The position numbers were made by a program, and so were the translations under genes. Below the pieces are notes generated by a model that was given only the letters and a program-made list of their open reading frames with translations, was not told the DNA's origin and searched no databases. From an uncultured Clostridia bacterium (GTDB lineage Bacteria > Bacillota > Clostridia > Oscillospirales > Feifaniaceae), in contig CAJFTX010000012.1 in assembly GCA_904420075.1 (NCBI GenBank), positions 1 to 64,000 on the forward strand: a stretch of 64,000 nucleotides of DNA. Reading direction: 5' to 3'. Below are positions 38,349 through 54,901 of the stretch, piece after piece. How positions within the stretch are numbered: the first letter of the stretch is position 1; every line of letters starts with the position of its first letter.

Positions 38349-38468
38349 GCGGGCGTCCCGCCCTGTTTTTGCGGGCTGTGCTGCGGGTTCTGCGCGGTGC
38401 ACCTGCGCTTTGGAAATGATGCTGTGGGTAACTTTCGGCGAGTGCCTACAGAAAAAATGGAGGAGACT

Positions 38469-38966
38469 ATGAAGATTTTTAGAGAGACAGTCAAGGCCCA
38501 GTCCACCGGTATGCGTCCGACATTCCACAAAATCACCGATCAGGTGAAGGATATCGTCGCCCGCTCCGGCATTCAGAACGGTTTTGTGCTGGTGTATTCG
38601 CACCACACCACCTGCTCGGTTGTGACCCAGGAGGATTCGTTCGACATGGCGTACACCGGACTCGAGTATATGCAGCAGGATCTGGTGGATATCTTCGAGG
38701 AGATGATTCCGCAGTGCCGTCATGAGGGACAGTATATGCATCCGGGTCCCAAGGCTACGGTGTTCGCGGCGGAGCACGGCGAGGACTCCACCGGAGTCAT
38801 CAATACCGACGCGCATCTGCGCTCGATGTTTATGGGCAGAAGCGAGTCGATCGTGATTGCGGACGGCGCAATGGATCTCGGCGAGTTCGGCCACATCTAC
38901 TTTATCGATTTTGACTGGACGCGTCCGCGTGAGCGCACCGTTCAGGTTCAGGTGATCGGCGAATAA
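38469..38966 (+). CDS. YjbQ family protein
   Basis: A 165-residue YjbQ/UPF0047 protein, a trimeric small enzyme family with weak thiamine-phosphate synthase activity reported in E. coli. The conserved core is seen: VYSHHTTCSVVTQED near residue 44, DAHLRSMFMGRSESIVIADGAM (in parts), and the terminal IYFIDFDWTRPRERTVQVQVIGE (in parts). It is somewhat longer than the usual 130-140 residues through an insertion around residues 70-110. ATG 38469 has TGGAGGAG upstream. It follows the TIM-like gene by 120 bases and ends at a terminator, so the two form one unit. Confidence 0.88.
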   Translation: MKIFRETVKAQSTGMRPTFHKITDQVKDIVARSGIQNGFVLVYSHHTTCSVVTQEDSFDMAYTGLEYMQQDLVDIFEEMIPQCRHEGQYMHPGPKATVFAAEHGEDSTGVINTDAHLRSMFMGRSESIVIADGAMDLGEFGHIYFIDFDWTRPRERTVQVQVIGE

Positions 38967-39071: not shown

Positions 39072-39118
39072 TTTGTGCATATAAAGCATAAAAGTGGTTG
39101 AATAGGAGTTGGATTTTG

Positions 39119-39976
39119 ATGCAGAGGAGCGGGCGAATACGGCTGATACAGATGGCGGTCTGTCTGCTCTGCTGCCTGTGCCTGGCGGGGTGTGTGCGCG
39201 CGGAGGTGCCAGAGGGAGTACAAGTTCCAATTCTGCTCTACCACCACTTTAGTGAGCAGGGAAGTGGGGTCACGCCTGAGACGTTTGAACTGCATATGAG
39301 AACCCTTGCAGAGGCGGGATACACTGCGGTGACATTTGATCAGCTGGTGAATTATGTGCAGAGGAGAGGGGAACTGCCGGAGCGTCCGGTCTGTATTACG
39401 ATGGATGACGGCTATCTCAGCAACTACGAGATCGCCTGGCCGATTTTGGAGCGCTACGGTATGAAAGCCACCATTTTTGTGATCGGGTCCTCGGTCGGCC
39501 ATACGGAGCGATACAAGGATACGGAATATCCGATCACGCCGCACTTCACCTGGGAACAGGGACGGGAGATGGTGCGCTCCGGCACGGTTGATTTACAGTG
39601 TCATACCTATGATATGCACCAGTGGGCGCCCTATGAGGAGAGGAGTCCGGCGCGGGAGAATGTGCTGCCGCTCGAAGGGGAATCGGAACAGGAGTACGCG
39701 GCGGCGCTTGTGGAGGATATCGAGGCATTTCAGCGCGACTACAGAGAAGCGCTGGGGAAACGGGCCGACGTCCTCGCCTATCCCGGAGGACAGTACAGTG
39801 AACAGGCGGAGAAAATTGTGCGAGAACAGGGCTTTTTGGCGACAGTGACCTCGGACGCCTCGCGGGAAAACTGGATTTTTGAAGGAAAGCCGGAGAGCCT
39901 CTACGGACTCGGACGGAAAAATATTGAGGAGAGCGTGACGGCGGAACAGCTTTTAGAGATGGTCAAGTGTGAGTGA
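39119..39976 (+). CDS. polysaccharide deacetylase lipoprotein
   Basis: A 285-residue CE4-type deacetylase. The first 23 residues are a lipoprotein signal (VCLLCCLCLAGC, lipobox LAGC), so it sits on the outer face of the membrane. The NodB domain shows VPILLYHHFSEQ, the metal motif TMDDGYLSNYE, and the HTYDMHQW histidine pair for the zinc site, then LAYPGGQYSEQA. It probably removes acetyl groups from peptidoglycan or wall glycan. ATG 39119 is used; an upstream TTG (39098) is open but not needed. A close paralogue follows directly. Confidence 0.87.
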   Translation: MQRSGRIRLIQMAVCLLCCLCLAGCVRAEVPEGVQVPILLYHHFSEQGSGVTPETFELHMRTLAEAGYTAVTFDQLVNYVQRRGELPERPVCITMDDGYLSNYEIAWPILERYGMKATIFVIGSSVGHTERYKDTEYPITPHFTWEQGREMVRSGTVDLQCHTYDMHQWAPYEERSPARENVLPLEGESEQEYAAALVEDIEAFQRDYREALGKRADVLAYPGGQYSEQAEKIVREQGFLATVTSDASRENWIFEGKPESLYGLGRKNIEESVTAEQLLEMVKCE

Positions 39977-40013
39977 AACTTCGCGCAGCGCGCCGCAAAA
40001 GGGGAGGAGAAAA

Positions 40014-40889
40014 ATGGGGATAAAGCAGACGGGCCGAAAAATCGGGTGGATTCTATGTATAACGATGTGCCTGGCGGGTCTGCTGTTTGTTGGGCTGAGC
40101 AGCGGCGGGCTGGGAGTTCCGGCGGAGGTGCGCGTCCCGATCTTGCTCTACCACCATATTACAGAGGAGGTGACAGGAAAAGATGTGGAGCTCTCGCCGG
40201 AGACATTTGAGCTGCATATGGAGGCTCTTGCAAAGGCGGGGTACACCGCGGTGACATTCGATCAGCTGGTGGGCTATGTGGAGCGGGGAGAGCGGCTGCC
40301 GGAGCGTCCGGTCTGTATCACGATGGACGACGGATATCTCAGCAACTATGAGCTCGCCTGGCCGATTTTGGAGCGCTGCGGGATGAAAGCCACGGTCTTT
40401 CTGATCGGGAGCTGTGTGGGGCACACTTACTATAAGGATACCGAGTTCCCGGTGACCCCGTATTTCAGCTGGGAGCAGGGCAGAGAGATGCTGCATTCCG
40501 GTGTGATCGATCTACAATGTCACACCTATGACCTGCACCAGTGGGAACCGTTTGAACCGGAGGGACCGGTGCGGAAAAATATTTTGCCGCTGCCGGGCGA
40601 GACAGAGGAGGCCTATACCCGCGTGGTGACGGAGGATTTGCGGCAGTTTCAGCGGGTATATGAGGCGGAGCTGGGGAGGCGGGCCTATGTCCTTGCGTAT
40701 CCCGAAGGGAAATACAATGAGCTCGCGGAGCGAATCGTCCGCGCAGAGGGGTTTTCGGTGACGGTGAGCACTGATGTCCACCGGGAGAACCTGCTGAAGA
40801 GAGGGGAGAGAGAGAGCCTCTATGAGCTCGGCAGGATCAATGTTGAGGCGGATATGACGGCGGAGGAATTGCTGGAGCAGATCGAGTAG
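40014..40889 (+). CDS. polysaccharide deacetylase, membrane-anchored paralogue
   Basis: A 291-residue paralogue of the preceding gene, nearly colinear over the catalytic domain (VPILLYHHITEE, TMDDGYLSNYELAWPILERC, HTYDLHQWEPF, LAYPEGKYNELA). Unlike its partner it has no lipobox. The N-terminus (IGWILCITMCLAGLLFVGLS) is a plain membrane anchor. The pair arose by tandem duplication and then changed anchoring. ATG 40014 has GGGGAGGAG upstream, and the gene starts 37 bases after its neighbour. Confidence 0.87.
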   Translation: MGIKQTGRKIGWILCITMCLAGLLFVGLSSGGLGVPAEVRVPILLYHHITEEVTGKDVELSPETFELHMEALAKAGYTAVTFDQLVGYVERGERLPERPVCITMDDGYLSNYELAWPILERCGMKATVFLIGSCVGHTYYKDTEFPVTPYFSWEQGREMLHSGVIDLQCHTYDLHQWEPFEPEGPVRKNILPLPGETEEAYTRVVTEDLRQFQRVYEAELGRRAYVLAYPEGKYNELAERIVRAEGFSVTVSTDVHRENLLKRGERESLYELGRINVEADMTAEELLEQIE

Positions 40890-41071: not shown

Positions 41072-42238
41072 TTATAGTTTGATCGACTGCTCGGAGAGCG
41101 GCATGTTTTTGCGAAAGTGGGGCATCTCCATTGTCCGGCCGCCGTTGACAACCGAGAGCTCGGAGAGCAGGCCGGCAGCCGTCCATTCGCACGCCTGATA
41201 GACGTCGATCTCCGGCGGCTTTTTACCGAGTACGGCGTCCACGAAATCCTGCACGATGAAGAAGTCCCCGCCGTGGTGACCGGCGGCCTTCTGCTCTTCG
41301 GTTGCGCTACGATAGCGCTCGGGCAGCAGGTGGCTGAAGTCGGAGAGCGGCCGCCACTTGGCGCTGTCGGTGTCCGGATCGAAATCCGAGAGCCAGAGTT
41401 TGTGCTGATCGCCGAGTCCGCGAGGCGCCTCGACGACCCCTTTGGTTCCCTGGAGCTGATAGTAGGCCATGTTGTGGGGGCGCATGGAGAGACAGTCGAG
41501 CCGGATACGCAACAGCTTGCCGCTCGCGAGCTGGCAGAGGGTGACCGAGGTGTCCTCCTGGCGCAGCTCGGGCGCGACGTGGTGGCCGCTTGAGAAGGTG
41601 GCGACGCTCGCGATCCGGTCCCCTTCAAACCACTGCATCAGCGGACCGATGCTGTGGGTCGGATAGAAGAGACCGCGCTTACCGAGCTGCCAGTATTTCC
41701 GCCAGGTGTAGGCGCCGTGTATCTCGTCCGGCGTGGGTTTATGGAGGCCGGTTTTGAGCGAGGCCTGATGAAGCAGGCCCTTGATCTCGTGCAGATACTC
41801 GCCCTCGCCGTAGTAGATCTCGCCGAACAGGCCCTTTTTTACCATGGCGCGGATGAGCTGATTCTCGGGGCTGTAGCAGTAGTTTTCGGCGAACATATAG
41901 ACCTTTCCAGAGCGCTCCACGCTCTCGATCAGCCACCAGAGCTCATCCATTGTGACCCCGGCGGTCACCTCGGAGAAGACGTGCTTGCCCGCGTCGAGCG
42001 CGGCGATCGCCTGTGGAACGTGGCACTGCATCGGCGTTGCGATCACGACGGCGTCGATGTCACTCTCGAGCATATCCTCGAAAATGCGGTAGGTGTGCGG
42101 GATGTGATGGGCCTCGCTGACCTCCTGTAAGAGGGCGGCGTCGAGGTCGCAAATCGCGGTTACCTCCACCCCGTCGATCGCCTGAAAGCCGAGCAGAGTG
42201 GAGAGCCCGCGCGCGCCGGCGATTCCGATTTTTAACAT
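41072..42238 (-). CDS. Gfo/Idh/MocA family oxidoreductase
   Basis: A 388-residue NAD(P)-dependent sugar or inositol-type dehydrogenase. The Rossmann fold starts at KIGIAGARGLS and runs to about residue 120, with IDAVVIATPMQCHVPQA. The usual EKP motif is EVT here (HVFSEVTAGVTMDE), so the lysine normally needed near the active site is missing from that position. The second domain contains YPTHSIGPLMQWFEGD and HHGGDFFIVQDFVDAV. ATG 42238 has GGAGG upstream. It is last in the importer operon, 15 bases after the permease, so it likely acts on the imported compound. Confidence 0.85.
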   Translation of the reverse strand: MLKIGIAGARGLSTLLGFQAIDGVEVTAICDLDAALLQEVSEAHHIPHTYRIFEDMLESDIDAVVIATPMQCHVPQAIAALDAGKHVFSEVTAGVTMDELWWLIESVERSGKVYMFAENYCYSPENQLIRAMVKKGLFGEIYYGEGEYLHEIKGLLHQASLKTGLHKPTPDEIHGAYTWRKYWQLGKRGLFYPTHSIGPLMQWFEGDRIASVATFSSGHHVAPELRQEDTSVTLCQLASGKLLRIRLDCLSMRPHNMAYYQLQGTKGVVEAPRGLGDQHKLWLSDFDPDTDSAKWRPLSDFSHLLPERYRSATEEQKAAGHHGGDFFIVQDFVDAVLGKKPPEIDVYQACEWTAAGLLSELSVVNGGRTMEMPHFRKNMPLSEQSIKL

Positions 42239-42253
42239 GAGGAGTCCTCCTTT

Positions 42254-43135
42254 TTACTCTTTGACCGAGCCGATCATGATGCCGGAGACAAAGTATTTTT
42301 GCAAGAAGGGATAGACGCACATGACCGGAATGATGGTGATGACGGTGAACGCCATCTTGAGCGATTGGCTATTGACGAGGGCTGCGCTGCCTGCGCTCCG
42401 AGCGCCCTCCAGTGTCTGACTCATCTGCGCTGCGACCGTGTTGTAGAGCACGTACTGAATGGTATAGAGATGCGGACTCATCGAGTTATAGAGCTGGGTA
42501 TCCATCAGAGAGTTCCAGTGGGTGAGGGCGGAGAAGAGAATCACTGCGGCGTTGACCGGGAGGCAGATGGGGAGAATGACCCGGAAGTAAGCGGTCAGCT
42601 CGTTGCCGCCGTCGATCAGCACCGCCTCCTCCATCGAGGGAGGAATGCTCTCCATGTAGTTTTTCATCAATACGATGTTGAAGGGGACGACTAACATCGG
42701 AATGATATAGACCCAGAACGTGTTGGTGAGTCCCAACGTCTGATAGGTGAGATAGATGGGGATGGTACCCGCGTTGAAGTACATGGTGAAGATGATGAAG
42801 ACGCGGAAAAACCGGCCGGCAATCAGATGTGTTTTGCTGAGTACATAAGCTGCCATACCGCTGACGAGCAGCATACCGGCGGAACCGAGCACGCTGCGCT
42901 CAACAGAGATGAGCAGCGAAGAGTAGACCGCCTCTGTCTCAAACGCTGTTTTGAACGATTCGAGAGTGAATCCCTTTGGCCAGAGGAGCAGAGAGCCCGT
43001 GGTCTGACTCGGAGTGCTGAGCGAGCAGGTGATCACATACCAGAAGGGATAGAGTACCAGGACGAGGATAATGAGCATGAGTAGAGTGTTGAGTATGTCA
43101 AAAAGAATTCCGCCGACGCTCCGTTTTCTTTTCAT
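42254..43135 (-). CDS. carbohydrate ABC transporter permease, LplC/YtcP-like
   Basis: A 293-residue inner-membrane permease with six helices, of the MalG/LplC class. The cytoplasmic EAA loop that docks the ATPase is MEEAVLIDGGNELTAYFRVILPICLP near residue 185 (quoted as EEAVLIDGGNEL and VILPICLP). The N-terminal RSVGGILFDILNTLLMLIILVLVLYPFWYV region is typical for this subfamily. It follows the LplB-like permease by 12 bases. No ATPase gene is nearby, as usual for this class, which shares an MsmX-type ATPase. Confidence 0.9.
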   Translation of the reverse strand: MKRKRSVGGILFDILNTLLMLIILVLVLYPFWYVITCSLSTPSQTTGSLLLWPKGFTLESFKTAFETEAVYSSLLISVERSVLGSAGMLLVSGMAAYVLSKTHLIAGRFFRVFIIFTMYFNAGTIPIYLTYQTLGLTNTFWVYIIPMLVVPFNIVLMKNYMESIPPSMEEAVLIDGGNELTAYFRVILPICLPVNAAVILFSALTHWNSLMDTQLYNSMSPHLYTIQYVLYNTVAAQMSQTLEGARSAGSAALVNSQSLKMAFTVITIIPVMCVYPFLQKYFVSGIMIGSVKE

Positions 43136-43147
43136 CGTATCCCCCCC

Positions 43148-44113
43148 TTAGAAAACCGAGGTGTCGCTCAACTTCTTCACCGTCTTGTTGACCACGACGA
43201 GCACGATGATACTGACGAGCGTCTTTAGAATACCGACGGCTGTTGCATACGGGTAGTCGAGCTGCTGTAGACCGAATTTATAGATATACATGTCGAGGAC
43301 CTCCATCGTCTCCCAGTTGGTCGCGTTTGTGAAGACGAAAAACTGTTCGAGATTGTTGGAGAAAATCCAACCGCTGTTCATAATGAGCAGAATAGAGGCG
43401 GTTGGAATAAGATTCGGCAGCGTGATATACCAGATCTTTGCGAACCGGCCTGCACCGTCGAGCGAGGCGGACTCATATTGTTCCTGCGGGATACCGCTGA
43501 TGGTAGCGAGAAAGATGATACAGTTATATCCCGTGTGCTTAAAGAGGTTTAAAACGATCATAAGCCCCCAGGAATACTTGGCGGAGCCGAGAATATTAAA
43601 GCCCTTTTCGATCACGCCGAGCGAGACGAGCAGCTGATTGATCGCGCCCGAGTTCACGGCGAAAAGCGCCCAGACGATCGAATACATGATTACCCAGGAG
43701 ATGAAATACGGGAAAAAGAGGATGGTCTGGACAAATTTTGCTCCCGGTTTCCAGAGCAGTTCCCGCAACAGAACGGACAGGACGAGCGCCACCGTGATAT
43801 TGATGACAATAGTGAGCCCGTTGATGACGAGCGTGTTTCGGATGAGATATCCGAGATCCGAGCTCTCAAACAGAAGACGGGAAAACTGCCTAAGACCTAC
43901 AAAGTCTCCGCCGAAGAGGGAGTCCCCCACATGATAGTCGGTGAAAGCGAGCCACCACCCGACGAGAGGCAGATAGCAGAGTACCGCCGTTAACAGAAAG
44001 GCCGGGCAGAGCATGAGCAGAAGATATTTCTGACGGTTGAGCCGGGTAAAAAGACGACTGGAACCGAAACGCCCGCTGTGGACGGAAGTTTTTTGAGAAC
44101 TGAGAACAGACAA
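43148..44113 (-). CDS. carbohydrate ABC transporter permease, LplB-like
   Basis: A 321-residue permease with six helices, partner of the LplC-like protein. The EAA loop reads EQYESASLDGAGRFAKIWYI near residue 215. Subfamily features include LLLMLCPAFLLTAVLCYLPL at the first helix and the C-terminal LDMYIYKFGLQQLDYPYATAV stretch. ATG 44113 has GGAGGAGT upstream. It lies 135 bases after the binding protein, with a GC-rich hairpin in between that may lower permease expression relative to the binding protein. Confidence 0.9.
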   Translation of the reverse strand: MSVLSSQKTSVHSGRFGSSRLFTRLNRQKYLLLMLCPAFLLTAVLCYLPLVGWWLAFTDYHVGDSLFGGDFVGLRQFSRLLFESSDLGYLIRNTLVINGLTIVINITVALVLSVLLRELLWKPGAKFVQTILFFPYFISWVIMYSIVWALFAVNSGAINQLLVSLGVIEKGFNILGSAKYSWGLMIVLNLFKHTGYNCIIFLATISGIPQEQYESASLDGAGRFAKIWYITLPNLIPTASILLIMNSGWIFSNNLEQFFVFTNATNWETMEVLDMYIYKFGLQQLDYPYATAVGILKTLVSIIVLVVVNKTVKKLSDTSVF

Positions 44114-44248
44114 GATGACTCCTCCTTTGCGGACAAAGACGCAGACGGTTGGGGGCGGCGTCCCTGCCGGAGCATTTTTTCACGGTTCTAAGGGAGCTGA
44201 GCGGCGAAATGGATAGCGCCCAGCCCCCTTTTTGAGAGGGGAGCGCTG

Positions 44249-45961
44249 TCAGCGCAGTTCCTCCGGTATCTCGGAGTACAGCCGATTGAGCTCGTCGATG
44301 ACCGACTGGTGATCGAGTTTGTCATACTCTGCCATCGCGTCGCTGTAGACCTGCTCAAATTCCTGTTCGGATTCGGCGAGCACCATGCGGGCGGACCATT
44401 TGGTCCGGACTTCCACCATCTTGGCGGCGGTTTTGCCGAGATCACTTGTGGGATCAATCGAGACCGAGCTTGCAGCTCCGGCGGAGACCAGCGTGCCGTT
44501 TTGTTCCCACCAGGCCTGCGAACTCTCCCAGCCGAGATTCTGATAGACTTCCTTCTGACGGTCGGTGAGGGTCGCTTCGTCTTTGTAGACCGGCTCATAG
44601 AGCAGCCCGTGGAACTGGCCGTCCGCCGCCCTGGTCTGGAAAATCGGAAGTCCTGCGAGGATGGAGGCCGTGCTCGACACGCAGACGCCGGTCTCCTTCA
44701 TGAAAGCCACCGAATCGGTACCGGCTTTCAGCAATGCGTCGGTCGGAACGCGTTTGCCGTCCTCGACCGTATAGTGCTCCCCCTCGAATCCGCTGCGCAT
44801 CATGATCTGGCCCTCGTCGCTTGAGGCCCACTCGATGATCTCCAGCAGCTTTTCGGGCTGTTTACATTTGTCGGTCAGGCCCCATGAGGCGTAGGGGCGG
44901 GAGACCTCCTCGCGCAGCATACGTTTCTGACCGGCTGCCACCTGGGAGGTGGATTGGATCGGAACCTGGACGTACTGCAGGTCAGAGAGGCCGTTGCTGA
45001 CGAGTCCCTCGTTGATCTGGGCGCTGTCGAAACTGACATACCAGATCGAGAGGGGGACGCCCTGCTGAGCTTTCTCAATGGTGCGGTCGTTGGTGTCGGT
45101 GAAACACTCCTCGTCGAGCAGCCCTTCGCGGTACAGCCTGTTGAAAAACTGGAAAGACTCCTTGACCTCCGGATTTTTAAAGTAGTCCTCGAATTTCCTT
45201 GTCTTGACGTTAAAGGTGTAGCTGTCGTTACTGATGGGGAGATAGGTGTCGCCCTTCTCATAGAGGATGGGCAGAATACCCTGAACGCCGTAAGACTCCG
45301 CGCCGGGCATCGTCATGCCGACGGTCGCCTGGCCGCTCTCCGTGGTGGGGTGGTTTTCTTTTGCCTCCCTTAAAAAATCGATCCACTCGTCGGTGGTGAG
45401 AGGAAGCTCCCAGTTGGCCTCCTCCAGCAGGTCGGAGCGCACCAGCAGATCACAGATGTCGAGTGACTCGCTTGGAATTTCAAGCTCCCAGTTATAGAGC
45501 TTGCCGTCGTCGCTGTTGAGCCGCCAGTAGGGGATGTTTTTTACAAATCGCGCCGTGAATTCCGGCATATCCTCGAGATAGGGGTCGAGCTCGATCAGCT
45601 TGCCGGCGTTGATATAGCTTTTGACGATGTCCTGGCGTTGCATCTGCTGCATTTCGCCGTAGTCGTTGGAGGCCAGCATCAGACTCTGCTTCTCGCGCAT
45701 ATCGCCCGCATACTGAATATACTCAAAATCGACGCCGAAGGTATCGAGAATATACTTTCCAACCTCCGTCTCAGAACTTTTGGTGGGGTATGCGGCTCCG
45801 GCGGGAACGAGCACTTGCACGGTATAGACGCCGTCGTCTGTGCCGGAGTCTCCACCCGGGTCGGCTTCGCCCTTTGAGCAGGCGGAGAGACTTGCCGCTA
45901 GGACGACTGTGAGCGCACAGGCGAGAACTCTGCCGAGCGTATCATTTACCTTGTGTTTCAT
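44249..45961 (-). CDS. extracellular sugar-binding lipoprotein, LplA/YtcQ-like
   Basis: A 570-residue solute-binding lipoprotein for the importer. Signal and lipobox: RVLACALTVVLAASLSAC followed by a Gly/Asp-rich linker. The large two-lobed domain has family phrases LASNDYGEMQ, DPYLEDMPEFTARF, DEWIDFLREAKE and SSDEGQIMMRSGFEGEHYTVEDG (in parts). The LplA subfamily usually binds oligosaccharides, often plant or host-derived uronates or rhamnose-type glycans, but the ligand here is open. ATG 45961 has GGAGGTG upstream, and a TATAAT lies near 46013-46018 on the minus strand. Confidence 0.9.
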   Translation of the reverse strand: MKHKVNDTLGRVLACALTVVLAASLSACSKGEADPGGDSGTDDGVYTVQVLVPAGAAYPTKSSETEVGKYILDTFGVDFEYIQYAGDMREKQSLMLASNDYGEMQQMQRQDIVKSYINAGKLIELDPYLEDMPEFTARFVKNIPYWRLNSDDGKLYNWELEIPSESLDICDLLVRSDLLEEANWELPLTTDEWIDFLREAKENHPTTESGQATVGMTMPGAESYGVQGILPILYEKGDTYLPISNDSYTFNVKTRKFEDYFKNPEVKESFQFFNRLYREGLLDEECFTDTNDRTIEKAQQGVPLSIWYVSFDSAQINEGLVSNGLSDLQYVQVPIQSTSQVAAGQKRMLREEVSRPYASWGLTDKCKQPEKLLEIIEWASSDEGQIMMRSGFEGEHYTVEDGKRVPTDALLKAGTDSVAFMKETGVCVSSTASILAGLPIFQTRAADGQFHGLLYEPVYKDEATLTDRQKEVYQNLGWESSQAWWEQNGTLVSAGAASSVSIDPTSDLGKTAAKMVEVRTKWSARMVLAESEQEFEQVYSDAMAEYDKLDHQSVIDELNRLYSEIPEELR

Positions 45962-46097
45962 AACAGCACCTCCTTATTTGTCCGGACGAATATTGTGGAT
46001 TTTGTCTATATTTAAATTATAAAATAACATATTTTTGTGCGAAACATGCAAAAACATACTTCGTTCACAAATAAGACATGAAAAATTAAACTTTTCG

Positions 46098-46131
46098 AAA
46101 AAAAGAGACGGCAGGGGAGGCCTGCCGTCTC
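46098..46131 (-). terminator. terminator of the two-component operon
   Basis: Minus strand GAGACGGCAGG / CCTGCCGTCTC with a 5-nt loop and seven T, at the end of the response regulator gene. It separates regulators from the importer transcript. Confidence 0.88.
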
Positions 46132-46903
46132 AGGTGAGATGTGTTGCTCGGTATTCGGTGGGGGTCATGCCGGTTTTTGCCTTGAACATCCGATAGAAGT
46201 AGTTGAGATCATGGTAGCCGACGTTTTCGGAGATCTCGTAGATCCGAAGATCCGGGAGACGCAGCAGCTCCGATGCGCGTTCGATGCGCAGCGTGTTGAG
46301 ATAGTCGGTGAAACGCTGTCCGGTCGAAGCTTTGAACAGACGGCCGAGATAGACCGCATTCATATAGAATACGTCCGCAATAGCGGTGAGGCTGATGTCG
46401 CGGTTGTAGTGTTCGTCGATATATCGGAGAACCGCTTTCATCAGATCGGGAGAGGCGAGCGGCGGGGGATCGACGGAGGGCGGCTCACAGGCGGCGGAGG
46501 GAGCCGGCGGAGCAGGCGCGGGACCGCGGGAGGCCAGGACGCCGCGCACCCGTTCGAGCGCCTTTACCAGCAGATGGTCGTTGATCGGTTTGAGCAGATA
46601 GTGCGAGACGCCGGATTCGATCGCGCGGCGGGCGTATTCAAATTCGGGGAAGGCGGAGAGAATGATGATCTCTCCGGGAAAATGCTCCTGCCGGAGCGCC
46701 TCGATCAGCTGGATGCCGTCGATGCCGGGCATGCGGACGTCGGTGAGGACGAGATCGAAAGGAGCGGTATGAATCCGCTCGAGCGCCTGGCGTCCGCTCG
46801 CCGCGCTGCCGGCGACGGTGAAGCCGTACTCCTCCCAGAGGATGAGCTTTGAGAGCCCCTGTCGGACAGCCTTCTCGTCGTCTACAATCAGAACACGGTA
46901 CAT
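46130..46903 (-). CDS. AraC-type response regulator, YesN-like
   Basis: A 257-residue regulator. The receiver domain (1-120) has IVDDEKAV, the phospho-acceptor Asp in LVLTDVRMPGIDG near residue 54, and LLKPI near 105. An Ala/Pro-rich linker leads to an AraC DNA-binding domain (150-257) with ISLTAIADVFYMNAVYLGRLFK and the second helix-turn-helix RIYEISENVGYHDLNYFYRMFK (in parts). ATG 46903 shares a base with the kinase stop; TTG 46906 is not needed. It presumably activates the adjacent sugar-binding protein promoter. Confidence 0.93.
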   Translation of the reverse strand: MYRVLIVDDEKAVRQGLSKLILWEEYGFTVAGSAASGRQALERIHTAPFDLVLTDVRMPGIDGIQLIEALRQEHFPGEIIILSAFPEFEYARRAIESGVSHYLLKPINDHLLVKALERVRGVLASRGPAPAPPAPSAACEPPSVDPPPLASPDLMKAVLRYIDEHYNRDISLTAIADVFYMNAVYLGRLFKASTGQRFTDYLNTLRIERASELLRLPDLRIYEISENVGYHDLNYFYRMFKAKTGMTPTEYRATHLT

Positions 46904-48735
46904 CAAAATCTCTCCTTCCTGTCCGGCCCCGGCCGGGTGCGAATGACGGGGAGCGTGACCTCGATTTCGGTTCCGCGCCCCTGTTTGCTCCAGATCTGCA
47001 TCCCGTAGTCCGCCCCGTAGAGCAGGCGGATGCGGTTTTGCACATTTTTGAGACCGAGCTTTGTATATCCCTCCGAGGGGGAGAGACCGGGGGCGGCGAT
47101 ATGCGCTTTGAGCCGGGTGAGCTCCTCCTCTGACATTCCCACGCCGTCGTCCGTCACAGTGAGGTGGAGGGCGCCCCCGCGCTCGGCGAGCTCCACGACC
47201 ACTGTGCCGCGCCCCTCCTTCGGCTCCAACCCGTGGAACACGGCGTTCTCCACCAGCGGTTGCAGGATAAGCCGGGGGAGAAAGAGCGCGCCGAGCTCCT
47301 CTGAGAGATAGGTTTGAAGCTGAATTCTGTTTCCAAAACGGTAGCGCTGGATCGACATATATTTCTTGACAAAGCGCAGCTCCTCCCGCACGGTGACGAA
47401 GTCCGACTCGGGATTTAAGTACTCGCGGATACTCTCGGCGAAGGTCTGCATCACATCCGCGGTCCTCCGGTCGCCCTGCAGCAGCAGATTCATCCGGATG
47501 GATTCCAGCGTGTTGAAGAGGAAATGCGGGTTGATCTGTCCCTTGAGCGCGAGAATTTCGGCCTCTTTCTTCTCGGTCTCGATTGTCTGTACGGCGAGCT
47601 TGCTCTCCATGATGCGGAGATTGGCCTCGTAGACGGTATGGATCAGCGTGTCGATCTTCTCTGCCATGTAGTTGAAGTCCCGGCCGATCCGCCCGATCTC
47701 GTCCCCGCCGGACACCTGCACCCGGGTGCGAAAATCGCCGCGGGCGATCCGGTGGATGCTGCCGGTCAGAGCTGCGAGCCGTCCGGTAATACTCGCGGAG
47801 ACCAGCGCGATCAGCAGCAGGGATAGGCCGAGGCAGACGAGACAGAGCAGTCCGCTGGAGGAGATGATCTGCCCGAAGTCCGCGAGCAGATCATCCTGCG
47901 GGATGAAGTAGAGCAGCTTCCAGTCCGCGATACCGAGATCGTTTCGGGTGAGCGTCTCCTCCATACGGATATAGTTTTTTCCGCCGTAGGATACCGCATA
48001 CCCGGCGGGGACGTGAGCTGCGGTGCGGAAGGGGACCCCGTCAAACGGGGCGCCCAGCAGCTCGCGCTCGGTCGAGGAGAGGATGACGCCGCGGTCATCC
48101 ACGAGAAAGACCATGTGCTCCGCCTCCTCGCTGACGAGCGCGTGGAGCGCTTGTTCATCCAGAAAGAGAGCGAGCACCATCTTCTCGGCGGGCGCCTCCG
48201 GACGCACGACGTCGGTGTAGCAACAGAGGCGGGAGGCGCTGTCGTCGACCGGGGCCCAGTGATAGAGTGCGTCGGTGCGCGTGGGATCGTACCAGCTGGA
48301 CCGCTCGAGCGCCTCAAGGCGGTTGTTCACCTCGGAGGAGAAGCGGACGGTGGGGTTGTCGTTATAGATTTTAAAGCTGCGTCACTCCTGCCGGAACCCG
48401 CTGGAGTACTGCCGAAGCACGGGGGCGACCACATCGAGATAGCTCTCAAGTCCCTCCGCGGGCTTGCCGTGCGGCGTATCGAGATACTGCCAGAGCGGCT
48501 GATAGGAGAGAAGCAGGTCGATGGTCTCCACCTGATCCTCAAACAGGTTGAAGTAATTTTCGCGCAGCTGGGCAAAGTTGCTGCGGGAGGCGTCCACCCG
48601 GCGGCTCACCGACGTCTCATACAGACGGGCGGTGAGCAGTGCGGTGATGAGCAGCACCGGCAGAATAGAGATGATCGCGCAGGAGATCATCAGCTTTTTT
48701 CGGATCGAAATATTCGATAAGAGTTCCCGCTTCAT
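46903..48735 (-). pseudogene. sensor histidine kinase, YesM-like, interrupted by an in-frame TGA
   Basis: A 610-codon kinase gene broken only by TGA at 48382-48384 (codon 118); both sides are in the same frame and belong together. The first part has a membrane helix (KLMISCAIISILPVLLITAL) and the start of a sensor domain ending SSGFRQE. After the stop RSFKIYNDNPTVRF continues the sensor, then a second helix, HAMP, the His-kinase box INPHFLFNTLESIRMNLL and the ATPase motifs LILQPLVENAVFHG and VTDDGVGM. ATG 48735 has GGAGGG upstream. TGG to TGA by one base change or a sequencing error are equally simple explanations. Confidence 0.85.
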
Positions 48736-48774
48736 AGGTCCCTCCTGTGCGCTGAAAAATTTGAACGGTTTGCC

Positions 48775-48840
48775 TTGCAACTTCTATTATAGTAGCGTAT
48801 GATGAGTTTATAAAGCAGTTTATAAAATTAGTTTTATAAA
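48775..48840 (+). promoter_or_regulatory. promoter and triple TTTATAAA operator of the ROK gene
   Basis: TTGCAA (48775-48780), 17-base spacer, TATGAT (48798-48803). Three palindromic boxes TTTATAAA follow at 48807, 48819 and 48833, just before the start codon. The same box occurs twice before the GDPD operon, so the ROK protein is the probable binder. Confidence 0.75.
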
Positions 48841-48855
48841 AGTTGAGGGCCGGTT

Positions 48856-49971
48856 ATGAATAAAATTACCAATGCGGAGATCAAACGGAGCAACCGCACC
48901 CATATCTACCAGCTGCTTCACCGCGGCGGAGCGCTCTCCCGACAGGATATCGTGCAGGAGCTGCGGCTCTGTCTGCCGACGGTGACGCAGAACCTGAATA
49001 AGCTGATAGAGGAGGGGCTGGTCCGGGAGGCCGGTTCGGTCGGCAATACCGGCGGCCGGCGGGCGAAGGTCTACTCTGTTGTCCCGGAGGCGCGGGTGGC
49101 GGTCGGCGTGGACGTCACGGCGGACCATCTGACGGCGGTCGCTGTGGATCTGACCGGTTCGGTGATCGGAACGAGGCGGATGTGCAGATCGTTTGCGCGC
49201 AGCGAGGCCGATCTGCGCGCCGTCGGAGAGCTGGTCTCGGAGTTGGTGGAGGGGAAAGAGCTGCGCCCGGAACAGATTCTGGGAGTTGGAATCGGGCTTC
49301 CGGCGCTGGTTACCGCGGATAACAGGGAGGTTTTCTACGGCAAGATTTTGCAGATCGACGGGACGACCCGCGAGGAATTTGCCGCCTATCTGCCATATCC
49401 GGTGGCGCTTGTGAACGACGCGAACGCCGCGGGATTTGCGGAGGTGTGGGCCGGGAGCGGACAGGAGAGCAGCTTCTATCTGATGCTGAGCAACAATGTC
49501 GGCGGCTCGGTGCTGATCGGCGGGGAGGTCTATCCGGGCGAGAGCATCCACAGCGGGGAGGCGGGCCATCTGACCCTCTATCCGGGGGGCAGGGAGTGCT
49601 ACTGCGGACAGCGGGGCTGCGTGGACCCCTACTGCTCCGCGGTGGCGCTCACCGGCGGGGAGGAGCTCGACCGGTTTTTCGAGCGGCTCGCCGCGGCGGA
49701 GGCGGAGGCGCTCGCCGCGTGGGAGAAGTATACCGACGATCTGGCAATCGTGGTGAACAATCTGCGGCTGCTATTTGATTGCAGAATGGTACTCGGCGGC
49801 TATGTGGGCGCGCGGATGGCGCCCTATCTGGCGCAGTTCCGGGAGAAGGTGGCGCGGCGCAGCTCCTTTGACTATCCGCCGGAGACGGTGGACGTCTGCC
49901 GCACCCGCACTGAGCCGATCGCCGCGGGTGCGGCGCTCGGTTTTGTCGCGAATTTTTTAAAAGAGATCTGA
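48856..49971 (+). CDS. ROK family transcriptional regulator
   Basis: A 371-residue NagC/XylR-type regulator. Residues 1-75 form a winged helix (NRTHIYQLLHRGGALSRQDIV ... LPTVTQNLNKLIEEGL). The ROK domain follows with VAVGVDVTADHL, the IGLPALV segment, NDANAAGFAEVW, and the zinc/ROK signature GEAGHLTLYPGGRECYCGQRGCVDPYCS (GEAGH, CYCGQRGC). The ROK fold binds a sugar or sugar phosphate that should release it from the TTTATAAA boxes. ATG 48856 has GAGGG upstream. It is divergent from the two-component operon, and a terminator follows. Confidence 0.92.
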   Translation: MNKITNAEIKRSNRTHIYQLLHRGGALSRQDIVQELRLCLPTVTQNLNKLIEEGLVREAGSVGNTGGRRAKVYSVVPEARVAVGVDVTADHLTAVAVDLTGSVIGTRRMCRSFARSEADLRAVGELVSELVEGKELRPEQILGVGIGLPALVTADNREVFYGKILQIDGTTREEFAAYLPYPVALVNDANAAGFAEVWAGSGQESSFYLMLSNNVGGSVLIGGEVYPGESIHSGEAGHLTLYPGGRECYCGQRGCVDPYCSAVALTGGEELDRFFERLAAAEAEALAAWEKYTDDLAIVVNNLRLLFDCRMVLGGYVGARMAPYLAQFREKVARRSSFDYPPETVDVCRTRTEPIAAGAALGFVANFLKEI

Positions 49972-49985
49972 CCGTATCCGGGTGA

Positions 49986-50020
49986 GCGGGTCCGTCCTCT
50001 TGAGGCGGACCCGCTTTTTT
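49986..50020 (+). terminator. terminator of the ROK gene
   Basis: GCGGGTCCG / CGGACCCGC stem, 11-nt loop, six T. Confidence 0.9.
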
Positions 50021-50134
50021 CTGTCTCAATTCCGTGCTCCAGATGTCTCCAGAGCCTTGTGTGGTAAAGACGGAAGCGGCATAGGAACACAGAAGGGAAT
50101 CGGGAATTTTCTTTTTCGGATACATGTTTCCGGC

Positions 50135-50198
50135 TTGACATTCACGAGGGCGGTGCTATAATCATAATATAAACTGTTTTATAAATCGAGTTTATAAA
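50135..50198 (+). promoter_or_regulatory. promoter and paired TTTATAAA operator of the GDPD operon
   Basis: TTGACA (50135-50140), 16-base spacer, TATAAT (50157-50162) with extended TGC. Two TTTATAAA boxes (50178-50185, 50191-50198) with 5 bases between form one larger palindrome immediately before the ribosome site. Confidence 0.8.
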
Positions 50199-50216
50199 AC
50201 GAAAAGAGGGATTCCG

Positions 50217-50951
50217 ATGAAGCGACCGATCATCCCGGTGGTGGGCCATCGGGGCGCGGCGGCGCTCTGGCCGGAGAATACGATGTACGCCTTCCGGGAG
50301 GCGGAGAAACTCGGGGTAGACGGGCTGGAGACCGACATCCGGATGACGCGGGATGGGGAGCTGGTGCTCTGCCATGACGAGCGGGTGGACCGGACGACCG
50401 ACGGCACGGGGCGGGTGTGCGACCTCTCGCTGCGGGAGCTGCGCGCGCTGGATGCGGGCCGCCCGTTCTGCGGCGGGCCCACCGGGCTGCGAATTCCGAC
50501 GCTTGAGGCGTTTCTCGACTGGGCGGCGGGGACCGGGCTCTTTCTAAATCTCGAGATCAAGGACGCCCGGCGGGAGACGGTGGAAAAGACGATGCGGACG
50601 ATCGACCGGTACCGGCTGGCGGGGCGCTATGTGATCACAAGCTTTGATCTGGAGGTCTGCCGCCATGTCCGCGCGGAGTTCGGCGCGCCGGTGCAGGGCT
50701 TTGTCCACGGGCGGCTGATCAACGACAGGCCCGACGCCTATAGGCTTTTCTATGCGGTTGGGATCGGGCTTGCCGAGCTCTCAAGAGAGCTCGTGCGGGA
50801 ACTGCGGGAGGAGGGGCTTCGCCCCTGGTGCTGGTGCCCGGACACCGAGCAGCAGGTACGCCGGGCGGTCGACTGCGGAGCGGAGCTCTGTACCTGTAAC
50901 GATCCCCGTCCGGCGCTTGCGCTGCTGCGGAGAGAGGGTCTCCACCCCTGA
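50217..50951 (+). CDS. glycerophosphodiester phosphodiesterase
   Basis: A 244-residue GDPD that cleaves glycerophosphodiesters to glycerol 3-phosphate and an alcohol. The catalytic set is present: VVGHRGAAALWPENTMYAF with HR and the first Glu near residue 20, GLETDIRMTRDGELVLCHDERVDRTTDG with ETD and the second His near 53 (in parts), and LEIKD near 115. No signal peptide, so it is cytoplasmic and acts on an imported diester. ATG 50217 has AAGAGGG upstream. It opens a four-gene catabolic operon under the TTTATAAA operator. Confidence 0.9.
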   Translation: MKRPIIPVVGHRGAAALWPENTMYAFREAEKLGVDGLETDIRMTRDGELVLCHDERVDRTTDGTGRVCDLSLRELRALDAGRPFCGGPTGLRIPTLEAFLDWAAGTGLFLNLEIKDARRETVEKTMRTIDRYRLAGRYVITSFDLEVCRHVRAEFGAPVQGFVHGRLINDRPDAYRLFYAVGIGLAELSRELVRELREEGLRPWCWCPDTEQQVRRAVDCGAELCTCNDPRPALALLRREGLHP

Positions 50952-51097
50952 GCGCCGCAAATCGGGGGAGAAGGCCTTGAAACAGGGGAGTGCCGGACGC
51001 TGGAATACTGCTTCGGTGTTCTCCCGGAGAGTCCATCAGCTTATCAGACGGTCCGTTTCCTGCGGCGGGGCGGGCCCACAGAAAGGGAGGAGACGAG

Positions 51098-52174
51098 ATG
51101 ACACAGATTCCGAAGACGATGCGGGCGCTGGTCGCATACAGCGCGAATGACTACCGGCTGGAGACCGCGTGGCCGGTGCCTGAGTGCGGGACGGACGACA
51201 TCCTGATCAAGACCGAGGGGTGCGGCATCTGCGCCGGGGATCTCAAGTGCCGCCACGGGGCCGCGATGTTCTGGGGGGACGAGGTGCAGCCCGCGTGGGT
51301 GGAGCCGCCCTTCGTTCCGGGACACGAATTTATCGGCGTTGTGGCGGCGGTGGGCGCGCATGTCACAGGGGTAGCGGTGGGAGACCGGGTGACGGCAGAC
51401 CAGATTGTCCCCTGCGGGGAGTGCCGCTTCTGTAAGGATGGACACTACTGGATGTGCCAGCGTCACCATATCTTCGGCTTTTTTGAGGACTGCTGCGGCG
51501 GGATGGCCGAGTATGTCCGATTGCCGAAGGGCGCAGTGGTGCACCGGGTGCCGAAGGAGCTGCCGCTCGAGCGGGCGCTGCTCATCGAACCGTACGCCTG
51601 CTCCAAGCACTGTGTCGACCGGGCGCAGATCGGCTGCGAGGATGTGGTGGTGCTCTCGGGGGCGGGGACGCTCGGGCTCGGGATGCTCACCTATGCGAAG
51701 ATGCGCCACCCGGCGAAATTGATTGTGCTCGACATGCGTCCGGAGCGGCTCGAAAAAGCGAAGGAGTTCGGCGCGGATCTCGTCTGGAACCCCGCGGAGA
51801 TGGACGTAGTAGCGGCGATCCTGGAGCTCACGGACGGCTACGGCTGCGACGTCTATATCGAGGCGACGGGGCATCCCTCCTCGGTGGTGCAGGGGATGCA
51901 GATGATCCGCAAGCTCGGGCGGTTTGTCGAGTTCTCGGTCTTCGGCGCGCCGGCCACCCTCGACTGGTCGATCATCGGGGACCGCAAGGAGCTGGATGTG
52001 CTGGGGGCGCATCTCAGCCCCTACTGTTATCCGTTTGTCATCGAACACATCGCGGACGGCTCGCTCGCGACCGAGGGGGTGGTCTCGGCCATCTTCCCGC
52101 TGGAGCGGTGGGCGGAGGCCTTCGAGGCGGCGGCCGGCGCGCATGGGGAGCTCAAAGTTGCGCTCCGGTTCTGA
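51098..52174 (+). CDS. zinc-dependent medium-chain polyol dehydrogenase
   Basis: A 358-residue MDR alcohol dehydrogenase. Catalytic zinc ligands: Cys in EGCGICAGDLKC near residue 42 and His-Glu in VPGHEFIGVV near 72. The structural zinc lobe is CGECRFCKDGHYWMC near 107-121. The NAD motif is SGAGTLGLGM near 188, followed by VLDMRPERLEKA. Length and phrases such as IEPYACSKHCVDRA recall dehydrogenases of short polyols (erythritol/threitol type); the substrate is not proven. ATG 51098 has AAGGGAGGAG upstream. Nested between GDPD and a kinase, it probably oxidises the freed polyol. Confidence 0.85.
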   Translation: MTQIPKTMRALVAYSANDYRLETAWPVPECGTDDILIKTEGCGICAGDLKCRHGAAMFWGDEVQPAWVEPPFVPGHEFIGVVAAVGAHVTGVAVGDRVTADQIVPCGECRFCKDGHYWMCQRHHIFGFFEDCCGGMAEYVRLPKGAVVHRVPKELPLERALLIEPYACSKHCVDRAQIGCEDVVVLSGAGTLGLGMLTYAKMRHPAKLIVLDMRPERLEKAKEFGADLVWNPAEMDVVAAILELTDGYGCDVYIEATGHPSSVVQGMQMIRKLGRFVEFSVFGAPATLDWSIIGDRKELDVLGAHLSPYCYPFVIEHIADGSLATEGVVSAIFPLERWAEAFEAAAGAHGELKVALRF

Positions 52175-52823
52175 GGAGGGGCGGCTCGTCCTCTTTGATA
52201 TGGACGGCGTGCTGTTTGACAGCGAACCGCTCCATCTGAGGGCGAAGCGCGAACTGCTCGGACGGGCGGAGGTGGAGCTGCCGGAGCTTACGGCCTCCGT
52301 TGGCGTGAGCAACCGGCGCTTCTGGGAGGAGATGCGGACGCGCTTTTCTCTGCGGGAGAGCCCGGAGCAGCTCGCGCAGCGACAGACCGAGCGGGTGCTT
52401 GCGCTGCTCGAACGGGAGGGACGCCCCTCCGAGGGGCTTTTGGAGCTGCTCTCCTTTCTGGAGCGGGCGGGCGTCCGCTCGGCTGTCGCCTCCTCCTCGC
52501 CCCGCCGGCTCTGCGAGGGGGCGCTCCGCCGCCTCGGCCTTTGGAGGCGTTTCTGCGCGCTCAGCTGCGGGGATGAAGTGCCGGGAGAGAAGCCTGCGCC
52601 CGACGTCTATCTGCGCGCGCTCGCGCTCTGCGGCTGCGCCCCTGCGCACGCCGTCGCGGTGGAGGACTCGAGCACAGGTATCGCCGCGGCGCGGGCGGCA
52701 GGGCTTTTTTGCATTGGCTACAGAAATCCCACCTCAGGCGTCCAGAATCTTGCGAGGGCGGACTGCACGGTGGACCATCTGTTAGAAATTCCAGCGATTT
52801 TGGAGGGACTATGGACTATTTGA
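52158..52823 (+). CDS. HAD family phosphatase, beta-phosphoglucomutase-like
   Basis: A 221-residue HAD enzyme, subfamily with helical cap (PGMB/GS1-like). Motif I is LFDMDGVLFDSEPLH near residue 14, with motif II SSS in AVASSSPRRL near 111, motif III lysine in GEKPAPDVYLRAL near 146, and motif IV VEDSSTGI near 172. It is either a sugar-phosphate phosphatase or a mutase. I choose TTG 52158 because GGAG lies 8 bases upstream; ATG 52143 is in frame but lacks one. It overlaps both neighbours (17 and 13 bases), showing coupled expression. Confidence 0.82.
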   Translation: MRSGSEEGRLVLFDMDGVLFDSEPLHLRAKRELLGRAEVELPELTASVGVSNRRFWEEMRTRFSLRESPEQLAQRQTERVLALLEREGRPSEGLLELLSFLERAGVRSAVASSSPRRLCEGALRRLGLWRRFCALSCGDEVPGEKPAPDVYLRALALCGCAPAHAVAVEDSSTGIAAARAAGLFCIGYRNPTSGVQNLARADCTVDHLLEIPAILEGLWTI

Positions 52824-54337
52824 TTGGCACGGACATCGGCACGTCCGGTACCAAGACGGTGCTGATGGACCTTCGGGGAAATCTGATTGCGCAGGAGCTT
52901 GTGACCTACGATTTGCTGACGCCGCGGCCGCTCTGGGCGGAACAGTGGCCGGAGGTGTGGCTCTCGGCCGCGAAACGCTCGATCCGCCGGACGGTGGAGC
53001 GGGCGGGTGTGCCCGCGAACCGGGTGCGGGGGCTCTGTATCAGCGGGCTCTACGGGGGCTCCGGTGTCCCGCTCGACCGGGAGATGCGGCCGGTGCGCCC
53101 CTGTATCATCTGGATGGACCGCCGCGCGGAGGAGGAGAGCCGGTGGGTGCGGGAACACATCCCGGAAAAGCGGCTGCGGCGGATTACCCACAACGGGACC
53201 GACCCCTACTACGGCTATCTCAAGCAGCTCTGGATCAAACGGCACGAGCCGGAGAACTGGGAGAAAATCAAGCTCTTTCTCCCGCCGAACGCCTATGTCA
53301 TCTACTGCCTCACGGGGGAGGTCGCGATCGACTACTCCTCGGCGGGTAATCTCGGGGGCGTCTTTGACATGGAGCGGCGCGCCTGGTCGGAGGAGATGCT
53401 GGAGGCGCTCGGTATCCCGCGCTCAATGATGCCGGAGCGGCTGGTGGCCTCGAGCGAGGTGGTCGGACCGCTCCGGGCGGAGGCCGCGCGCGAACTCGGC
53501 CTGCCCGCAGGGATGCCGGTCTGTGCGGGCGGGGTGGACTGCGGCGTCGCCGCGTTCGGGCTCGGGGTGTTTGAGCCGGGCGAGTATGTGGCGGCAGTGG
53601 GGACCTCGATGTGCGCGGCGCTCATCCACGACCGTCCGATTCCGGCGGAGGGGCTGATCGAGTGGCCGTATGTTCTCGACCCGCTGCGGCTTTCCTACTC
53701 CTTCGGCGGCGGGGCGACGGCGGGCGCGGTCGTCAAGTGGTTTCGCGACACCTTTGCGGCGGAGGAACGGGAGGCGGAGTGCGCGGGCGGAGAGAGCGCC
53801 TACGCGGCGCTCGACCGCGCGGCGTCCGAGATTCCGCCCGGCTCGGGCGGGCTTGTGGTGCTGCCCTATTTTATGGGGGAGCGGAGCCCGCTCTGGGACA
53901 CCGACGCGAAGGGAGTGATTTTTGGGCTCTCCCTCTCGCATACGAGAGCGCACATCTACCGTGCGTTTCTGGAGGCGGTGGCCTATTCGCTGCGTCACAC
54001 GGTGGAGGCGGCGGGGGAGTGCGCGGGGGACTATATCCTGCTTGCGGGCGGGGTGAGCCGCTCGCCGCTCTGGCGGCAGATCTTTGCCGATGTGACCGGA
54101 TATCCGGTGGTCTGCCCGCTCTGCGACGTGGAGGCAAATCTCGGAGATGTGATGCTCGCCGGGCTCGGTACCGGCTGCCTGACCCTCGAGGAGCTGCGCG
54201 GCTGGCGGACCCGGGCGGAGCCGGTCCGGCCGAATCCGGAGGCAAGTGCGGTCTATGACCGGTACTACCGGATCTACCGTGCGCTCTACGGAGATTTGAA
54301 AGGCGAGATGCGGGAGCTCTCAAGGCTCCAAAATTAG
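52811..54337 (+). CDS. FGGY family carbohydrate kinase
   Basis: A 508-residue sugar or polyol kinase of the xylulokinase/glycerol kinase fold. N-terminal phosphate loop YLIGTDIGTSGTKTVLMD, substrate region IIWMDRRAEEES near residue 98, DYSSAGNLGGVFD near 176, the hinge GGVDCGVAAFGLGV, and the C-terminal FGGY motif region AGGVSRSPLWRQIFADVTGYPV near 415. Sugar specificity cannot be read. ATG 52811 has GGAGGGA upstream. It is the last gene of the operon; phosphorylating the dehydrogenase product (a ketose) would be a coherent role. Confidence 0.9.
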   Translation: MDYLIGTDIGTSGTKTVLMDLRGNLIAQELVTYDLLTPRPLWAEQWPEVWLSAAKRSIRRTVERAGVPANRVRGLCISGLYGGSGVPLDREMRPVRPCIIWMDRRAEEESRWVREHIPEKRLRRITHNGTDPYYGYLKQLWIKRHEPENWEKIKLFLPPNAYVIYCLTGEVAIDYSSAGNLGGVFDMERRAWSEEMLEALGIPRSMMPERLVASSEVVGPLRAEAARELGLPAGMPVCAGGVDCGVAAFGLGVFEPGEYVAAVGTSMCAALIHDRPIPAEGLIEWPYVLDPLRLSYSFGGGATAGAVVKWFRDTFAAEEREAECAGGESAYAALDRAASEIPPGSGGLVVLPYFMGERSPLWDTDAKGVIFGLSLSHTRAHIYRAFLEAVAYSLRHTVEAAGECAGDYILLAGGVSRSPLWRQIFADVTGYPVVCPLCDVEANLGDVMLAGLGTGCLTLEELRGWRTRAEPVRPNPEASAVYDRYYRIYRALYGDLKGEMRELSRLQN

Positions 54338-54451: not shown

Positions 54452-54901
54452 TTAGCAGAGATAGACCTGCGGCGCGCAGAGGGTGCAGGCGGTGACCCGG
54501 CCAGAGAACTCCAGAGAGACATGTGCGCTCTCGGCCCCCTCGGGACAGTTGAAATGTTCAAGCAGCGGACGAAACTCGGAGCAGATCCGCCCGGCGATCT
54601 CCCGCCGGACGGTCTGAAGCAGGTCGTCCGCTGCGCTGTAGAAGGCGGCGGTGAGCGAAGCGCTCTGGACCTCGATTGCGCGGAGAAAGAGCCCCCAGCG
54701 GAGCGCTTTCGCCCCGCGCAGGCCGATCGGCGGTTCATAGAGAAAAAGGCCGGTGTAGGCCACCCCATTCGGAATGGTGACGCTGCAGGTGCGGTACCCG
54801 TTGTGGGTAAAGTTGTCGTAGGTGAGTCCGTAGCAGGAAAAGTGCTCCGGTCCCCCGGCGGGGCCGGGGTGTAGCCGGGAATTTTGAATCTGATTTTCCA
54901 C
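54452..54901 (-). CDS. hypothetical protein
   Basis: A 149-residue frame with a normal globular composition (HFSCYGLTYDNFTHNGYRT, SVTIPNGVAYTGLFLYEPP, then a helical AFYSAADDLLQTVRREIAGRI and a Cys-containing end TLCAPQVYLC). Start GTG 54901 has GGGGAGGGG about 10 bases upstream, and the terminator at 54343-54374 follows. No signal peptide or motif. I recognise no family; the ribosome site, terminator and composition make it more likely real than chance. Confidence 0.55.
   Translation of the reverse strand: MENQIQNSRLHPGPAGGPEHFSCYGLTYDNFTHNGYRTCSVTIPNGVAYTGLFLYEPPIGLRGAKALRWGLFLRAIEVQSASLTAAFYSAADDLLQTVRREIAGRICSEFRPLLEHFNCPEGAESAHVSLEFSGRVTACTLCAPQVYLC

Follow-up and report, generated by a model that had tools for sequence, protein, structure and literature searches.

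A putative ROK-controlled locus for polyol salvage in an uncultured Clostridia bacterium

Which compound is consumed by a locus that carries a carbohydrate importer on one strand and, on the other, genes for a glycerophosphodiester phosphodiesterase-like protein (GDPD), a zinc-dependent MDR dehydrogenase, a HAD phosphatase and an FGGY kinase, and do the two arms form one system? The locus is located in positions 1-64000 of contig C12 (CAJFTX010000012.1; this 64,000-nucleotide stretch is termed the window) of an uncultured Clostridia bacterium, the assembly of which comprises 1.90 Mb on 95 contigs at a completeness of 93.5%. An initial annotation had suggested that imported glycerophosphodiester-linked polyols or glycan fragments are cleaved, oxidized and phosphorylated; all genes it named were recovered by gene calls and by Pfam and NCBIfam profile searches. 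A literature search found no described gene set like this one. The answer favored here, tentatively and at somewhat less than an even chance, is a ROK-controlled carbohydrate regulon that combines polyol salvage with an importer.

Operator boxes at the two promoters

The minus arm runs in the order YesM, YesN, binding protein, LplB, LplC and Gfo, the plus arm in the order ROK, terminator, promoter, GDPD, MDR, HAD and FGGY (Table 1). The window contains five copies of the motif TTTATAAA where 0.16 would be expected, and all of them fall into the two putative operator regions. The first region contains the -35 element of the minus-arm promoter (48814-48809). Paired boxes, of the form TTTATAAA-N4-6-TTTATAAA and searched with a spacing of 1-6 nt, occur in the whole genome (1.9 Mb) at these two promoter regions only; the reversed-pattern control of the pair had 0 matches genome-wide. 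Because genome-unique paired boxes sit at both promoters, the two arms appear to form a single ROK regulon.

The regulator has the architecture of a ROK sugar repressor. Its ROK domain (PF00480) scores over the cut-off, while the winged helix-turn-helix matches at the N-terminus are significant yet weak and stay under the curated cut-offs. Loci of MDR homologues (80 kept loci, 67-77% identity) served for comparison, and 24 of them hold a linked ROK homologue (39-52% identity). The same paired boxes are located 3' of the MDR promoter and before MDR in L016, L023 and L028 (Paenibacillus) and in L025 (Clostridia). Applying the strict pattern, pairs were detected in 4 of the 24 ROK-linked loci (shuffles, mean 0) and in 0 of the 56 loci that lack ROK. 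From this co-occurrence of regulator and boxes we infer that ROK binds TTTATAAA. More divergent versions of the box, e.g. TGTAAAACGGATTTACA, were seen by eye in Lachnospiraceae loci (inspection, no statistics).

The layout would also be accounted for if a glycan system of YesMN, LplABC and Gfo happened to adjoin an unrelated system of ROK, GDPD, MDR, HAD and FGGY. YesMN-LplABC occurs at 36-47% identity in one other genome (L148), there with a different Gfo, Paenibacillus has ROK-MDR-AraB, and Gfo homologues have been found in other settings. The genome-unique operator pairs at both promoters speak against such independence, as do LplABC-type genes together with MDR and a close FGGY in L047, and a chance neighborhood is very unlikely. 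L047 unites LplABC, YesM-type regulators, MDR and the close FGGY; the same set extends across the adjacent loci L006/L126 on one contig. The pairing of the arms is therefore not unique to the window genome. A window-type Gfo and GDPD are not among the genes of these loci. With operator boxes, promoter and synteny in other genomes, the arrangement is more than chance. That the two arms belong together, as the initial annotation assumed, is backed by the operator pairs common to both, and co-regulation now stands firmer than could be known from its material.

Table 1. Features of the locus, by position in the window
Feature	Position	Strand	Characteristics
Gfo/Idh/MocA enzyme, GH109-type C-terminal domain	41072..42238	-	PF21252 69.7 bits (cut-off 27); PF01408 49.7 bits
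LplC-type ABC permease	42254..43135	-	PF00528; 46% permease in L148, beside YesMN and binding protein
LplB-type ABC permease	43148..44113	-	PF00528; 47% identity to L148 permease
LplA/AlgQ-type solute-binding lipoprotein	44249..45961	-	PDB 9pmy, E 2e-21; AlgQ1, E 3e-9
YesN-type response regulator (receiver and AraC HTH)	46130..46906	-	PF00072, PF12833
YesM-type sensor kinase with in-frame TGA	~46903..48735	-	His_kinase, HATPase_c and HAMP in 46903-48330
Predicted minus-arm promoter	48786..48814	-	TTTATA-17-TATAAT, 10/12
Putative operator region 1, divergent YesM/ROK intergenic region	48807..48840		three TTTATAAA boxes
ROK-family regulator, NagC/XylR-type	48856..49971	+	PF00480 113 bits; presumed owner of the operator
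Intrinsic terminator after ROK	49984..50016	+	13-pair stem, 9 GC pairs, T tail
Predicted sigma-70 promoter of the GDPD operon	50135..50162	+	TTGACA-16-TATAAT, 12/12 consensus match
Putative operator region 2, just 3' of the GDPD -10 element	50178..50198		two TTTATAAA boxes
GDPD, cytoplasmic glycerophosphodiester phosphodiesterase-like	50217..50951	+	PF03009 131 bits
Predicted zinc-dependent MDR polyol dehydrogenase	51098..52174	+	PF08240, PF00107
HAD phosphatase, beta-PGM/HxpB/CbbY group	52158 (TTG)..52823	+	HAD_2 and Hydrolase; HxpB 96 bits, under cut-off 191
FGGY ketose kinase	52811..54337	+	FGGY_N 199 bits, FGGY_C 127 bits

The transcriptional layout differs in part from the initial annotation, which had described an overlapping operon. 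MDR and HAD overlap by 17 nt and HAD and FGGY by 13 nt, the TTG start of HAD being located within the 3' end of MDR and the FGGY start within the 3' end of HAD, but GDPD and MDR are separated by a 146-nt gap. ROK and GDPD share a strand as described; ROK, however, is followed by a strong terminator of its own and GDPD has its own promoter. The GC content is 60.5% for the locus, 65.4% for the plus arm and 59.5% for the whole window, the locus thus being near the window value.

Dehydrogenase and ketose kinase

The MDR translation combines the ADH_N and ADH_zinc_N domains with Cys, GHE, CGECRFCKDGHYWMC and LIEP motifs, as in zinc-dependent MDR enzymes. The preferred start is the ATG at 51098, preceded by GGGAGGAGACGAG. 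Relatives were present in Clostridia, Paenibacillus, Spirochaetes, Synergistetes and one metagenome-assembled genome of Coriobacteriia. An FGGY kinase gene accompanies MDR in 38 of the 80 loci, at a distance of up to 3 kb in 37; at 3-10 kb, an internal control for chance, only six matches were obtained. Two MDR-linked kinases that were tested are true L-ribulokinases (AraB) by NCBIfam cut-off (L028, 707 bits; L018, 710 bits; cut-off 583), and MDR-linked loci with LyxK-like kinases also hold an L-ribulose-5-phosphate 3-epimerase of the UlaE family and an AraD-like 4-epimerase. The FGGY linkage, together with AraB, UlaE and AraD in several loci, supports the initially proposed order of polyol, ketose and ketose phosphate, and such a core is likely. 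Since AraB-type kinases and L-ribulose-5-phosphate epimerases adjoin MDR, the product of the family is likely a pentulose, and its substrate hence a pentitol. A search of solved structures gave no close characterized relative, and a literature search retrieved no paper on the substrate of the MDR family.

Bacterial pentitol catabolism, consisting of a ribitol or arabitol dehydrogenase and a ribulokinase or xylulokinase, likewise has its dehydrogenase and FGGY kinase genes in a common operon and converts a polyol via the ketose into the ketose phosphate. The window differs by the additional GDPD and HAD, apparent ROK control, the LplABC/YesMN importer and the GH109-like enzyme, and its substrate is suggested by neighboring genes. 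Among 147 genomes searched, only the window genome and one further genome from its order carry MDR; the gene was not found in the seven other members of the organism's family. The distribution is therefore patchy, and the locus was probably gained or often lost.

An inositol or hexose derivative has also been considered as substrate. The inositol genes of Thermotoga are under control of a ROK regulator (PMC3750489), and the iol operon of Thermotoga maritima (IolR, IolM) resembles the window in its ROK regulator, zinc MDR, Gfo enzyme and ABC importer. By analogy, GDPD would free inositol from glycerophosphoinositol, MDR would act as a cyclitol dehydrogenase like IolM, and ROK would correspond to IolR. 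MDR reaches 175 bits against the scyllo-inosose 3-dehydrogenase IolM (NF041097), and Gfo is weakly similar to IolG. Both values, however, are far under the cut-offs (450 for IolM, 355 for IolG), the window has FGGY, GDPD and HAD in place of inositol-specific downstream genes, and a cyclitol route does not fit the FGGY kinases and the pentulose-phosphate epimerases found next to MDR. The inositol reading was rejected as highly improbable. MDR is also below the cut-off for L-threonine 3-dehydrogenase (TIGR00692; 183 bits, cut-off 458).

The window kinase belongs to the FGGY superfamily, both domains scoring over their cut-offs. Homologues with 64-70% identity are located in MDR- or LplABC-linked loci (L029, L038, L047, L126), where no adjoining epimerase was seen. 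More distant relatives (49-50%) adjoin an L-fucose isomerase gene, FucI, in L128 and L129. L-fucose isomerase also acts on D-arabinose, and D-ribulose is for these reasons a reasonable guess for the kinase substrate. The 49% relative in L128 (7844-14377) is situated between L-fucose isomerase/mutarotase-like and propanediol-dehydratase-like genes, a context suggesting that the FGGY branch of the window kinase includes fuculokinases. The MDR tree was tried as a predictor of the kinase type. It groups the LyxK-like labels and the AraB labels but leaves F10 and F15 scattered, and it does not predict the window product. No member of the class II aldolase family (AraD/FucA-type) was found in the window genome at its completeness of 93.5%. 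As an AraD or FucA route is not visible, the kinase product should enter the pentose-phosphate pathway directly.

Phosphodiesterase, phosphatase and importer

GDPD scores over the PF03009 cut-off, and its HRG, ExD, H and LEIK (E-K) motifs are intact and invariant in alignment A1. It is a single copy and the sole GDPD gene in the genome. A linkage of GDPD to a carbohydrate ABC importer, observed also in L035 and L055, recalls the scavenging of glycerophosphodiesters by GlpQ/UgpQ. Unlike UgpQ, the window GDPD falls below the PRK09454 equivalog cut-off (108.9 bits, cut-off 264); the importer is LplABC-type, and a polyol branch follows. A search with an alignment of four GDPDs, the window copy and three that are linked to MDR, gave strong matches in 4 of 391 genomes of the class, three of them within MDR-FGGY-HAD operons, a count that is not independent because the window and L018 were included by construction. 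The four genomes are those of the window organism, two Ruminiclostridium species and G180. In G180, GDPD lies apart from MDR, and the genome carries MDR and a 65% FGGY elsewhere. The search shows a GDPD subtype that is rare and operon-linked.

HADs of the same group (37-41%) were found near MDR in L016, L018, L024 and L067, directly after it in L016 and L024 and at a distance of 2.7-3.3 kb in L067 and L018. The motif GYxNPxSGxQ is common to the HADs in three of these four relatives.

The complete set of MDR, FGGY, GDPD and HAD recurs in two Ruminiclostridium species in the order MDR-AraB-GDPD-MgtC-HAD. These are Ruminiclostridium papyrosolvens (L163, a stretch of contig identical to L018) and a sister species (L162, placed in the genus by the shared genus handle), with MDR, AraB and GDPD 95-99% identical between them. 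Identities to the window are 71% for MDR, 41-42% for HAD and 38-39% for GDPD. In contrast to the window, the FGGY is a true L-ribulokinase, and the gene order, the importer and the regulator (LacI-type, upstream) are different. The initial annotation had made its proposal depend on a gene order conserved beyond this genome; the four enzymes do recur together, but their order differs. No function of the Ruminiclostridium operon is reported in the literature found.

The binding protein of the importer is nearest by sequence to 9pmy and to AlgQ-type oligosaccharide binders, and a homologue (39%) occurs in only 1 of 390 other genomes of the class. An in-frame TGA (48384-48382) cuts the sensor gene YesM into an N-terminal piece (48382-48735) and a GTG-started remainder (46903-48330) that share a frame. 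As TGA is a normal stop in the locus, ending both GDPD and MDR, the sensor may be broken in the organism, or the assembly may contain an error at this site.

Gfo matches PDB 2ixa (E 9e-38) with conserved YPTH and GxYxH, its GHGG region being altered to GHHGG, and is a possible NAD-dependent glycosidase or oxidoreductase. Homologues with 56-72% identity are present in 12 of 390 other genomes of the class. They mostly adjoin other kinds of genes (acetyltransferase, PHP or YdjC-like), apart from the MDR operon. In L149-L157, the window-type Gfo (56-72%) was repeatedly observed beside acetyltransferase-like genes of ~174-190 aa and PHP/amidohydrolase or YdjC-like genes. A 3-keto-glycoside reading, based on apparent Gfo gene pairs near MDR, was abandoned after the sequences of cluster 1 turned out to be mostly ABC ATPases.

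Proposed route and competing readings

In the proposed regulon, ROK on the TTTATAAA boxes would block both promoters without inducer, the operator covering the -35 element in the minus arm and following the -10 element of the GDPD promoter. With inducer, LplABC would import a carbohydrate that carries, or is accompanied by, a polyol, and the GH109-like Gfo would possibly trim it. Cytoplasmic GDPD may then cleave a glycerophospho-polyol, and HAD would dephosphorylate the polyol if GDPD leaves the phosphate on it. The zinc dehydrogenase would use NAD+ to oxidize the free polyol, for which a pentitol (ribitol or an arabitol) is the best guess, and so yield a 2-ketopentose. Phosphorylation by the FGGY kinase would deliver the product to the pentose-phosphate pathway.

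That a phosphodiester or a teichoic acid is involved is a hypothesis. In its most specific form, a dedicated ROK-regulated pathway would degrade glycerophospho-pentitols, e.g. fragments of ribitol or arabitol teichoic acid-like polymers of neighbor cells, by GH109-type trimming, release through GDPD and HAD, oxidation and kinase entry into the pentose-phosphate pathway, an outline common to Ruminiclostridium. This form is unlikely.

Several findings weigh against the route. The window kinase is under every NCBIfam equivalog cut-off, including those of the xylulokinase XylB (TIGR01312; 325.7 bits, cut-off 380.25) and the L-fuculokinase FucK (TIGR02628; 117 bits, cut-off 470.9), and naming it by family was dropped. 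Its FucI-linked relatives suggest fuculose or D-ribulose as substrate, not a single fixed pentulose, and MDR-adjacent kinases span at least four FGGY subfamilies, the products of which may differ. The apparent gene absences may be gaps in the incomplete genome. Binding proteins of the LplA/AlgQ type normally bind oligosaccharides, not small phosphodiesters. A glycerophosphodiester or teichoic-acid cargo is put in question by the AlgQ1-like binding protein, by the occurrence of the GH109-like Gfo apart from the operon elsewhere and by the rarity of GDPD, which is present in 5 and absent from 75 of the 80 MDR loci. The dehydrogenase consequently works without GDPD.

The rarity of GDPD at MDR loci and the glycan-related look of the binding protein and Gfo favor a plain glycoside or sugar alcohol without phosphodiester as substrate. 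Importer and Gfo would supply it, MDR and FGGY would catabolize it, HAD would repair polyol phosphates from side reactions of the kinase, and GDPD would be a passenger recovering glycerol-3-phosphate from lipid turnover. Because HAD accompanies MDR also where GDPD is missing (L016, L024, L067), a repair phosphatase is conceivable. A passenger role, however, agrees poorly with the position of GDPD as first gene behind an operator-controlled promoter, with its sole genomic copy and with the recurrence of its subtype in MDR-FGGY-HAD operons. The plain-sugar explanation is somewhat less probable than the favored regulon.

For the favored polyol-salvage regulon, the shared operator, the frequent kinase partner and the recurring GDPD/HAD pair define a small set of enzymes for assay. 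If the phosphodiester reading is true, the locus would represent a route by which anaerobes scavenge polyol phosphates from the envelopes of other cells.

Further genes surround the locus. Tandem polysaccharide-deacetylase lipoproteins, PgaB/IcaB-like (39098-39976 and 39969-40889, plus strand), adjoin the Gfo end and are convergent with the locus. They are preceded by a triosephosphate-isomerase-like gene (37617-38348, plus strand; PF00121, 44 bits) and a gene that is YjbQ-like by eye (38397-38966, plus strand). Beyond the kinase, an open reading frame of 149 aa (54452-54901, minus strand) has no Pfam match. A methyltransferase-like gene (61579-62172, minus strand) with a GC3 of 0.30, compared with a window GC of 59%, is a possible recent arrival.

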